From NCBI GenBank assembly GCA_018673915.1, contig JABHBK010000067.1:187292-251291 (forward strand): 64,000 nucleotides of DNA. The letters are read 5' to 3'. Position numbers and translations under genes: made by a program. This stretch comes from Nitrospina sp. GTDB taxonomy: Bacteria; Nitrospinota; Nitrospinia; Nitrospinales; VA-1. Shown piece by piece: positions 28,858 through 33,025 of this stretch; position 1 is the stretch's first letter, and the number at the start of each line of letters is the position of its first letter. The notes below the pieces were generated by a model, which saw nothing but the letters and a program-made list of their open reading frames with translations, had not been told where the DNA came from and ran no database searches.

Positions 28858-29103
28858 ATGGAAAACAATAAGGAAACCCGGGCAACAATAGAATCCCGTT
28901 TGGATGTTTTGCGTAAAGGTATTATCAGTGAAGAAAATTCCGTGAACTATTACAATACTCTCATTGATAAAACTCCTGAGGATTCCGAGGCCAATATAGG
29001 AATGCGTCGTATGTATATTGATTTGATGGCTGAAGAGAAAAAGCATGTAGAACGTTTTCAAGAACTGATTTTGAAATGGGAACAAAATCTTAAAGAAGTT
29101 TAG
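28858..29103 (+). CDS. Small ferritin/rubrerythrin-like helical protein (half four-helix bundle)
   Basis: An 81-residue all-helical protein behind a strong GAGGGG ribosome binding site. The pattern SEENSVNYYNTLI (Glu and Tyr on one face), then a turn, then LMAEEKKHVERFQELI (E-x2-H) is the E/ExxH arrangement of rubrerythrin/ferritin-like di-iron proteins. Only two helices are present, so a dimer would be needed to build a four-helix bundle. It could bind iron and buffer or detoxify it; its position ~220 bases upstream of the iron permease operon fits. The similarity is by pattern only. Confidence 0.6.
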   Translation: MENNKETRATIESRLDVLRKGIISEENSVNYYNTLIDKTPEDSEANIGMRRMYIDLMAEEKKHVERFQELILKWEQNLKEV

Positions 29104-29324: not shown

Positions 29325-31475
29325 ATGCCACCTGTGGAAACCGTATTGCCTCATAGATCTGATAATCCAATTTTGAAGCTGGTCTTATTTTTATTACTCA
29401 CTCAGGTCTTCTGGTTCCCCAATCAAGCCAAAGCGACTAATCAAGCCACCATAGACAGAACAAAAAAAATTGTCATGATGTTGAATATAGCCGCCAAAGA
29501 ATTTGAAGAAGGTGTGGTAGACGGAAAAATTGTCGTTGCTCCAGAATATGAAGAAAGCCAGGTATTTTTGCAACAGGCGATCGAAAGATTTGAACGGATA
29601 TCACCAGAAATATCAGATCCTCTGAAAGCCGAGGAAATTAAAAAGCGATTCATCAATATGATGGCTTTGGTCAAAAGCAAAGTTGATTCCCAAAAAATAT
29701 GGGAGGAAGTCAATGCAATCAATTCAGAGTTGTTAACAACTTTTAATATTGAAATCAATAAAACACCTATTACGCCGGTATCTCTGACTAATGGGGAAAA
29801 AATATTTGAAAATAATTGTTCGGTTTGCCACGGTCTAAAAGGGAATGGTGATGGCCCCATGGCCAGCCAATTTGACCCCTCCCCTGCCGTTTTATCCAAT
29901 CCAAAACTTACTGGGGACGCAAACACTACAGCTTACGATAACTTTGAAGTAATTAATGTTGGCATTGCTAATACCGCGATGATTGCATGGGCTGGACTTC
30001 TCTCGGAAAACCAAATTTGGGATGTTACCTATTACCTCAGAACATTTTCCAATGCAAACTTACAGCTCCCTCCCGTAAACCTTGATTTGGCTGCTATAGA
30101 GTCTTCAGAGGATATTGGCCTAGCCGAGCAGGTTGTGAACGAGGTCAGAGAAGTTCTTGACAGAAGTTTAGTCACCTATAAAACAGGCCAAGTAGAAAAT
30201 GCCGCAGAATTGGCTTTTGATGCATATCTAGCGTATGAAAAAATTGAGTCGAATCTTATTACTAAAGACCGAGACCTGGGAGTGAATCTGGAATCGGCCT
30301 TTAGTCGCTATCGGGGAGAAATAAAACGTAACGCGCCTTTGGAGCAGGTGGAATCCCTTCATAAAGAAATTAACCTGAATCTTTTAAAAGGTTTGGAACT
30401 ACTCAAAAATGAAGTCGGTTTTACGGGTATGTTCTTCCAGTCTTTCTCCATCATCGTTCGTGAAGGCTTTGAGGCGATTCTTATCATAGCAGCGCTTATC
30501 GCATTTTTAGTTAAATCACGCAATCAGGCTCGGGTTAAATCCATTCACATCGGCGTTGTGGTGGGCATTCTTGCCAGTTTTGCAACGGCCTATATTATTC
30601 ATGAAGTTCTTCACCTGAGCATGGCGAGTCAGGAAGTTCTTGAAGGCTGGATCATGCTGATAGCCGTTGCTGTCCTATTCTCAGTCAGTTATTGGTTGGT
30701 ATCTAAAATTGATAACAAAAGGTGGCAGGAATACATAAACAAACAAATGCGCGGAGCCCTGTCCAAGGGAAATACTTTCACCTTAGGAGCAGTGGCATTC
30801 ATATCAGTTTATCGTGAAGGATTCGAAACCGTTCTTTTTTATAAAGCTCTCTTCTTATATGCCGGTGATTCTACAGGAGGGATCATACCTGGGTTTCTGG
30901 CCGGTTGCGTAGTTTTGGCATTAATATTCTACTTGATCAACACATTGGGAATGAGAATTCCTATTAAATGGTTTTTTGGGTTCACCAGTGTACTGCTGTA
31001 TTACATGGCGTTTACTTTCATGGGAAAAGGAATTCATGAATTACAAATGGGCGAGCAGATTTCCATGACATCCGCAGATATTTTACCCAGTCTTTCCTGG
31101 CTAGGCATGTACCCAACATGGGAAACATTCATAGGCCAGGCAGTGTTGTTTGCGGCATTTGTTTTTGCACTGGTTTACACTTTTATCATTAAGGCTGAGC
31201 TGGGTGCCACTCAATTAAAAGAAGAAACCTCTCAACTACAAGGCAACATCACCCAAGTGCATGACCTGGTAGAACATATTTCTCATCATGCAAAACGTTG
31301 CGAAGTATTCTTAAAAGATACTCCCGATCAGGATTTGCAGGAGCTTTCTGGACATTTAAAAGAAATAGATATCAAGATCCACGAACTTTTTGGGCATGTA
31401 AAATACGTGGAAAACCAACTTCAAGATGAGTATGAGAAGCTGGCCAAGAAGGCCTTTGAGGCCAAACAAAATTAG
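29325..31475 (+). CDS. Cytochrome c-FTR1 iron permease fusion with His/Cys-rich cytoplasmic tail
   Basis: 716 residues. Signal/anchor (~15-37) is followed by a periplasmic helical region, then a cytochrome c domain with CSVCH heme site at 165-169 and [12 protein letters not shown] second periplasmic helical stretch leads into an FTR1-type ferric permease from about residue 365, which has two REGFE iron-transport motifs (about 378 and 497) and seven predicted helices. The tail (from ~645) carries repeated His and one Cys. FTR1 moves Fe3+ while the heme domain probably takes part in Fe2+ oxidation. The tail is shared with the next gene (see findings). It starts an operon behind a Fur-type promoter. 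Confidence 0.92.
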
Positions 31476-31483
31476 GCGTTCCC

Positions 31484-33025
31484 TTGAATATTCGCTTATT
31501 TAAAAATACACGTGTCATCCACAAATGGGTTGGAATCCTTTTTGCCGTATTTATACTAATTCTTTCAGTTTCCGGCTTTCTATTAATGCACCCGGAAGAA
31601 TTTGGAATTGAGAAGGCCCAAATTAGCGGAAAATATTTACCTGCTAAATATTTCAAAGTCCATCAAGCCCGCCGTCGTATTCAGTCCCTGATTACACACC
31701 CCACTGACAAGCAGACTATATATGCAGGAACGGATATCGGGATTTATAGATCTCAGGATGGCGGCAAAACCTGGCTTCAAACCAATCAAGGATTGTTTGA
31801 CCAGGATATTCGTTCCCTTGTCATTGATCCTAAAAATTCCAGCACAGTTTATGCAGGGACCGGTCACGGCATATTTAAATCTGAGGATGCTGGGAATACT
31901 TGGAGCGACTGGTTTGATGAGTCAGCGGGTTTAACCCATTCCGGAATTCATGAAATTATTCTACATCCTGTAAATCCGGAAATTCTATTTGCCGCTACAG
32001 ATGGGGGAGTTTACCAATCTCTTGATGCCGGGGAGAGCTGGGAAACGGTGTTTTCTGGGTACTCGATCAACCTTATAGAATTTTCTGCATCCAACCCAGA
32101 TATCCTTTATGCTTCCGGAGCAAATGGGATTTTTCGTAGCAAAACTCGAGGGCAGGATTGGACTCGAGTCTGGGAAAATGTATTGCCTCCCGTAAGCCAG
32201 TTGATATCCCTCAATACCGACCCTGAATTTCTCTATTCCGGCACACAGACCGGGCTTTACAAGTCCTTTAATGGGGGCCGGAACTGGGTTCAAGACCCTG
32301 CTTTCAAGAGAATTCCTCTCAACGCAATTTTTGTAAACTCGTCTAACCAATCAAAAATTTATGCAGGCAGTGGAGCAAAAATTTTTTCAAGCAAGAATGG
32401 TGGAGATTCATGGGAAAACCTTTCCTCTCTCACTCAAATAATTAATGAGGATTCAGGAACATCCATTGACATTAAAATTAATAAGATCGTCAGTTTAGAT
32501 AAAAAAACTTTATTCGTAGGCACATCATCGGGACTGTATTTTTCTGAAGATGAAGGCGAGGTTTGGAAGAATATAGATTTGAGTGGAGCCGCCAATCAAC
32601 TATCGCCCGATGAAATGAAAATGGATGTTGTGAAACTGATAACCGAGATTCACAACGGGAGATTTTTTGGGTCTTATTTTTTTATGCTGGTAGATTTGGC
32701 AACTATCGGAATTGTGTTCCTGACTCTATCCGGTATTCTGATTGCTTACTACCGAACTAAAGTTAAGAACAGAAAAAAAATAGTGGGAGACCTGGCCGCT
32801 GACCGTGCAATCGAGTTAACTGAAACTACCGATGAACTTTCCAGCGAAAGTCATGAAATTCATGACATGATAGCGCACATCACCGAACACATTGAAAAAT
32901 GCCAATTGGTTTATATGGATCAAGAAAAAAAAGAAATAGAAGAAATCAGCCGACACCTGAATACTCTGGATAAAAAAATGCACCGGCTGATGGAGAATCT
33001 GGGGGAGTTGGAAAAGACCGATTAA
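31484..33025 (+). CDS. Membrane protein with periplasmic beta-propeller (Asp-box repeats) between PepSY-like helices
   Basis: 513 residues. TM1 (about 12-34, HKWVGILFAVFILILSVSGFLLM) and TM2 (about 395-418, VDLATIGIVFLTLSGILIAYY) resemble the helices of PepSY-associated iron-reductase proteins. Between them, about 60-370, are at least six sortilin/BNR-type Asp-box repeats (SQDGGKTW, SEDAGNTW, SLDAGESW, SFNGGRNW, SKNGGDSW, SEDEGEVW), which form a periplasmic beta-propeller. The cytoplasmic end (459-513) is the same His/Cys tail as in the preceding FTR1 protein. It follows FTR1 after 8 bases (TTG start, weak ribosome binding site), so it is probably a partner that binds or presents substrate. 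No catalytic motif is seen. Confidence 0.8.
   Translation: MNIRLFKNTRVIHKWVGILFAVFILILSVSGFLLMHPEEFGIEKAQISGKYLPAKYFKVHQARRRIQSLITHPTDKQTIYAGTDIGIYRSQDGGKTWLQTNQGLFDQDIRSLVIDPKNSSTVYAGTGHGIFKSEDAGNTWSDWFDESAGLTHSGIHEIILHPVNPEILFAATDGGVYQSLDAGESWETVFSGYSINLIEFSASNPDILYASGANGIFRSKTRGQDWTRVWENVLPPVSQLISLNTDPEFLYSGTQTGLYKSFNGGRNWVQDPAFKRIPLNAIFVNSSNQSKIYAGSGAKIFSSKNGGDSWENLSSLTQIINEDSGTSIDIKINKIVSLDKKTLFVGTSSGLYFSEDEGEVWKNIDLSGAANQLSPDEMKMDVVKLITEIHNGRFFGSYFFMLVDLATIGIVFLTLSGILIAYYRTKVKNRKKIVGDLAADRAIELTETTDELSSESHEIHDMIAHITEHIEKCQLVYMDQEKKEIEEISRHLNTLDKKMHRLMENLGELEKTD

Follow-up and report, generated by a model that had tools for sequence, protein, structure and literature searches.

Two neighbouring genes in the stretch of Nitrospina sp. 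DNA analysed here (64,000 nucleotides, hereafter the window) encode membrane proteins whose C-terminal tails are, judged by sequence, members of one domain family. The link of this tail to iron import is strong, and from our point of view the best explanation, to which we give somewhat better than even confidence, is that it represents a family of cytoplasmic two-helix hairpins, which accompany the membrane machinery of iron transport and reduction, either as a part of it or encoded next to it, and which receive the iron at the cytoplasmic mouth.

The permease, the propeller protein and their common tail

The two genes are separated by a gap of 8 nt, with the gene of protein P lying downstream of that of permease F:

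29325-31475, + strand: permease F, 716 aa; cytochrome c domain, FTR1 iron permease and His-rich C-terminal hairpin
31206-31412, + strand: tail hairpin of F, residues 628-696 (from alignment, conservation and AlphaFold)
31484-33025, + strand: protein P, 513 aa, TTG start; PepSY_TM, Asp-box beta-propeller and His-rich C-terminal hairpin
31619-32575, + strand: propeller of P, residues 46-364 (modelled by AlphaFold as all-beta; Foldseek matches to propellers)
32807-33022, + strand: tail hairpin of P, residues 442-513 (from alignment, conservation and AlphaFold)

F matches the Pfam model FTR1 (PF03239; 2.3e-28, above the cut-off) as well as TIGR00145 (2e-36), and with its REGxE-type motifs (REGFEA and YREGFE) it qualifies as a member of the FTR1 family. 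A secreted N-terminal cytochrome c domain (Pfam, 8e-10) is fused to the FTR1 part, and given this secreted N-terminus and the known topology of FTR1, the tail of F should be located in the cytoplasm.

Protein P had been described in a sequence-only reading of the window as a propeller protein. The propeller is indeed there, with Foldseek matches to GH74 and YCF48 propellers (E about 1e-14 to 1e-11), and is expected to be periplasmic; but P is a PepSY_TM membrane protein (PF03929, 32.5 bits with a cut-off of 28.8; PF16357, 31.5 bits with a cut-off of 27), in which the propeller is inserted between two membrane helices. In the AlphaFold model, a membrane helix at residues 3-35 leads into the propeller (about 46-364); after this come another membrane helix, at residues 397-433, and the tail, which, according to the positive-inside rule applied to the KVKNRKK stretch after helix 2, should likewise be cytoplasmic. 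PepSY_TM proteins are known or proposed periplasmic reductases of iron or siderophores, in which haems are held by His residues on both sides of the membrane (PMC8238504, PMC13038864), and the known reductases possess at least four membrane segments (PMC13038864). Like the FoxB/VciB-type iron reductases, P retains the PepSY_TM signature and invariant His residues near both membrane faces (H13, H36 and H390 in 25 sequences), and it probably transfers electrons by way of haem and so reduces iron outside the cell. It differs from them by its His-rich tail, by its two long membrane helices where a FoxB-type reductase requires at least four, and by having an Asp-box propeller where those reductases have their periplasmic PepSY domain. 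With the membrane-side His residues retained, this is apparently an unusual architecture for a reductase.

As had been proposed from the sequence, the tails of F and P align without gaps, namely over 53 residues with a BLOSUM62 score of 110. The 15 identities claimed, five His and the one Cys among them, were recovered within the 43 columns H19-L61 (numbering of alignment A1, which is used hereafter); the similarity does continue upstream, with matches at A, L, E, T and L, and residue 645 of F falls on base 31257, as had been indicated. In terms of the individual proteins, the conserved residues are H646, E650, H651, H655, C659, H677, D682 and H686 of F and H460, E464, H465, H469, C473, H491, D496, K498 and H500 of P, with the position of E464 being occupied by A in the window's own P. 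Random coiled-coil similarity, the objection that the sequence-only reading had itself raised, does not explain the score: among 20,000 shuffles each that were plain, heptad-preserving or hydrophobic-pattern-preserving, the maxima were 69, 73 and 108, respectively, and none of the 60,000 reached 110. When the whole of P was used as a query in 64 genomes of the order, its tail region matched the tail of an FTR1 protein in about 45 genomes (E 1e-9 to 1e-4), mostly in the gene adjoining P upstream, and in the window's own genome no third tail-bearing protein was found besides F and P. The idea that the resemblance reflects chance or a generic coiled coil can draw on the scattered coiled-coil noise that the tails return in Pfam and NCBIfam, but it was rejected and in our opinion has next to no chance of being right, given the shuffles, the cross-genome matches to FTR1 tails and, as detailed below, the invariant His residues across 100 distinct tails and the empty search of Gemmatimonadota.

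Carriers of the hairpin and their iron setting

The tail was searched for in the genome sets of Nitrospinota, of Gemmatimonadota and of the phylum of Deltaproteobacteria bacterium GWC2_42_11, which is larger than and distinct from Nitrospinota. Whether it recurs only on iron or redox membrane proteins had been posed as a question. A profile built from both tails matched in 52 of the 77 genomes of the window's phylum, the Nitrospinota, in which the closest named relatives are Nitrospina sp. LS_NOB and Nitrospinaceae MAGs. Among the strong matches examined, each belonged to a protein of iron transport or of the PepSY_TM type, or to the neighbour of one. The carriers comprise cytochrome c-FTR1 fusions, PepSY_TM proteins with and without a propeller, a free form, and FTR1 proteins without cytochrome c, among them FetM-type ones in the phylum of GWC2_42_11 that are followed by a NapH-like 4Fe-4S gene and P19. 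In genome G064, the tailed FTR1 protein has no cytochrome c and is encoded in the vicinity of genes for P19 and Fur. Four genomes of one family carry the tail on a PepSY_TM-like protein of 209-212 aa without a propeller, which adjoins an FMN-binding protein and a porin-like protein (porin by eye, with no Pfam match). This porin-like and FMN-binding locus (L068, L067, L069, L070, L171) is common to the genomes with the short PepSY_TM protein and to one genome with a tailed FetM/P19 system. Further, a BFD-type [2Fe-2S] protein (PF04324; L075:1126-1419) is encoded upstream of a tailed FTR1 gene in a P-free pelagic genome.

In GWC2_42_11 itself, the tail is found on an FTR1 protein that adjoins a NapH-like 4Fe-4S gene and P19. 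Within its class, 12 of 63 genomes carry the tail, ten on FTR1, one as a broken copy and one on a short PepSY_TM protein, the latter next to a gene that encodes both DtxR-type and FeoA domains. A second class of this phylum has the hairpin as a free protein of 85-94 aa directly after feoB (3 of 17 genomes), in loci of the type DtxR-FeoA-FeoB (identities by Pfam) and with one copy cut by a contig end:

L173:4766-5050; L189:3026-3283; L172 from about 4626: free hairpin protein, directly behind feoB, where FeoC sits elsewhere

A plasmid search with the free copy gave no match. As a negative control, 298 genomes of Gemmatimonadota were searched, and no tail match below E 0.0038 was obtained. Gemmatimonadota do possess the cytochrome c-FTR1 fusion without the tail, and this fusion was hence rejected as the source of the tail. 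Some of their fusions (L113, L114, L123, L124, L127 and others) end in a different short coiled coil of the LRSLERMEADLAELRAEVERMR type that has no His pattern. An FTR1 fusion with a duplicated cytochrome c region, at L107:4995-7481, carries no tail and has no adjoining P gene.

Two features upstream of the permease gene bear on the iron context of the locus in the window:

28858-29103, + strand: EncFtn-type ferritin-like protein, 81 aa
29249-29267, - strand: Fur-box-like site, AATAATGAGAATGGTTATC

The Fur-like site was found by comparison of orthologous upstream regions and scores 15 of 19 against the Fur consensus, a value that shuffled upstream regions reach in 1% of cases; a search of the window for the consensus with up to 3 mismatches returned nothing. 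Of 21 tailed FTR1 genes whose upstream regions were tested, 17 have a site scoring 14-17 of 19, and the window's genome contains two Fur-family genes. The EncFtn-like gene (PDB 5n5e, E 1.2e-4; NCBIfam EncB_fam, 5.8e-6) has stayed in place ahead of F in several of the family's genomes and is possibly part of the iron locus; an encapsulin shell for its product was not found in the genome, which is 92% complete.

As to known domains, the F tail, the P tail, the free copy and 55 aligned members gave nothing above the cut-off in Pfam or NCBIfam, only coiled-coil noise. No solved structure was matched among the PDB sequences, no sequence match to hemerythrin, ferritin-like or zinc-hairpin proteins was obtained, and the tail was not described in any of the literature that our searches returned. 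On the Pfam, NCBIfam and PDB sequence searches, identity with a known domain was rejected, and within the libraries and papers searched the supposition of an undescribed domain holds. The tail resembles SmbP of Nitrosomonas europaea (PDB 3u8v), a metal-binding protein of the periplasm, in being small, His-rich and helical, but the sequence match is at chance level (E 8.1) and SmbP is periplasmic and not attached to transporters. FetMP/P19-FTR1 uptake is similar in that several of the tailed FTR1 proteins are encoded together with P19 and NapH-like genes; the hairpin, however, lies outside every Pfam and NCBIfam model of FTR1 and is absent from the FTR1 fusions of Gemmatimonadota. FeoC, finally, is a winged-helix protein. 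The free copy is similar to FeoC and PF12669 in that it is a small accessory protein with suspected iron ligands encoded behind feoB, but it is a His-rich helical hairpin that matches neither family: the FeoC profile found no match in it, and it shows a two-helix pattern with no Cys in the shared core. FeoC usually has a Cys motif, and PF12669 is a Cys-rich membrane peptide (PMC8749426).

Conservation and predicted structure of the tail

Residue conservation was assessed in 100 distinct tails, many of which stem from related genomes and hence do not represent 100 independent cases. H28 and H50 are conserved in all of them, H19 in 97%, H24 in 95%, D55 in 96% (H in the other four) and H59 in 93% (replaced by Q, N or Y), and the replacements at H19, H24, D55 and H59 are often potential ligands themselves. 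Given the strictly conserved His residues and these often ligand-capable replacements, the tail is likely to bind metal. Not every proposed ligand is universal, as the free FeoB-linked copies are without H19, and H24 or H59 is replaced in some copies of the tail. The single Cys, which had been placed in the core of the shared pattern, turned out to be dispensable: it is present in 44 of 45 tails of cytochrome c-FTR1 fusions, 36 of 37 of propeller PepSY_TM proteins and 9 of 10 of FetM-type proteins, but it is missing from all five short PepSY_TM tails, from both free copies counted and from G064, and has been lost in G031. A role of the Cys as central ligand or disulfide link was therefore rejected as a core feature. 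The tail of F is at least as conserved as the FTR1 part in all eight comparisons between genera; in four of them, the identity of the tail core amounts to 81-85% compared to 69-75% for the FTR1 part, and in the other four to 71-77% compared to 70-72%.

AlphaFold predicts the tail of F as a two-helix hairpin with a turn at residues 664-668, at modest confidence (mean pLDDT 73, pTM 0.34), and the tail of P as helices 439-476 and 479-511, again at modest confidence (pLDDT about 60 there); overall, the pLDDT of the hairpins ranges from about 60 to 77. A Foldseek search with this modest-confidence hairpin returned generic helical matches, none with E<=0.001. The helix ends of the F model set a register of i+j=78, in which H28-H50, H19-H59 and C32-E46 would be at equal height. 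By helical wheels, H28 and H50 share one side of the hairpin, with H19, D55 and H59 facing the opposite way. Register and wheels together yield two candidate metal sites, N and S, and this predicted geometry suggests two sites per hairpin. Putative site N would consist of H24, H28 and H50, plus Cys32 or E46 in many tails, and putative site S of H19, E23, D55 and H59. In one clade of pelagic Nitrospina P proteins (L095, L100, L103), H19, E23 and H59 have been lost together while H24, H28 and H50 are kept, as two separable sites predict; judging from these sequences, this looks like the loss of one of the two sites. The F proteins of this clade retain H19, E23 and H59 although the P tails have lost them.

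Possible roles of the hairpin

The sequence-only reading had suggested a cytoplasmic metal-receiving or pairing domain that lets permease and propeller work as one complex. In this suggestion, the new domain, the link to iron transport and the C-termini expected to be cytoplasmic have stood, whereas pairing as the purpose has not. In the window's genus, the P gene is absent at intact synteny from five genomes (G028, G029, G031, G033 and G037, with the P-free loci L073, L190, L074, L191 and L192, respectively), which in the tree of F amounts to three or more separate losses of P. F keeps its tail in all five, and G031 is the only one in which the tail Cys has been lost. Further, the short PepSY_TM proteins carry the tail in genomes that have no tailed FTR1. 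The tail therefore does not need a partner to work, and pairing as its sole purpose was rejected on the losses of P. Contact between the tails of F and P, when both are present, is possible. In an extended form of this idea, the tail is mainly an assembly domain, in that the hairpins of F and P, or two like hairpins, form a four-helix bundle which joins permease and reductase and in which the His and Cys residues are structural or pin the dimer by way of a metal. In favour of this, the same domain occurs on neighbouring genes, every intact F-P locus seen has a tailed F and P was never seen beside a tailless one, F is without a tail in the P-free loci L090 and L107, and a PepSY_TM protein of two helices would probably have to dimerise to build the four-helix haem-binding core (at least four segments in PMC13038864). 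However, the F tail has survived the repeated losses of P, partnerless tails occur in several lineages as does the free protein, and L090 could have lost tail and P perhaps through a single deletion spanning both, so that we regard an assembly domain as rather unlikely.

That His-rich hairpins may also serve a structural purpose, or bind haem or metals other than iron, is a counterpoint to the reading as an iron receiver. One could imagine that the tail senses iron and, when its cytosolic level is high, slows or gates the transporter. The same distribution and the same ligands would be expected of such a feedback device, and the free copy occupies the place of FeoC and other accessory proteins of FeoB (PMC8749426); on the other hand, our results are compatible with both a sensor and a carrier, and PepSY_TM proteins are not iron transporters. 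We consider this role improbable. Haem binding by the His pairs, with the tail carrying electrons to the PepSY_TM protein and the cytochrome c-FTR1 fusion, would agree with the two facing His residues per hairpin, with the PepSY_TM relatives being haem proteins (PMC13038864) and with the invariant membrane-side H13, H36 and H390 of P, but the free copy beside FeoB and the tails on FTR1 proteins without cytochrome c have no obvious haem role, and the accompanying carboxylates fit Fe(II) better. It is, in our view, very unlikely.

Reception of iron by the hairpin is thus the explanation that we prefer. Since its relatives are found on other iron importers and free beside FeoB, the tail probably represents a portable module for handling iron at the inner face of the membrane. 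It would pick up iron that arrives at the cytoplasmic mouth and keep it or pass it on, with the hairpins probably acting as a dimer or larger bundle, and in the window one hairpin would belong to the permease F, through which iron enters, and one to the PepSY_TM/propeller protein P, which would reduce iron outside. A more far-reaching version, namely a portable cytosolic receiver joined to FTR1, PepSY_TM and FeoB that has two metal sites per hairpin and delivers iron to a dedicated acceptor instead of the free pool, is put forward tentatively, as we hold it to be somewhat short of an even chance.

The reception of iron on the cytoplasmic side, once FTR1 or FeoB has imported it, is an open question. 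A small domain that is common to unrelated importers, and that in one case stands alone as a soluble protein of about 90 residues, would open this reception step to ordinary biochemistry, and one module would connect the PepSY_TM reductases, FTR1 and Feo. As such, the tail adds to the picture of how bacteria of the Nitrospina group, which oxidise nitrite in the sea, may acquire iron where it is scarce.
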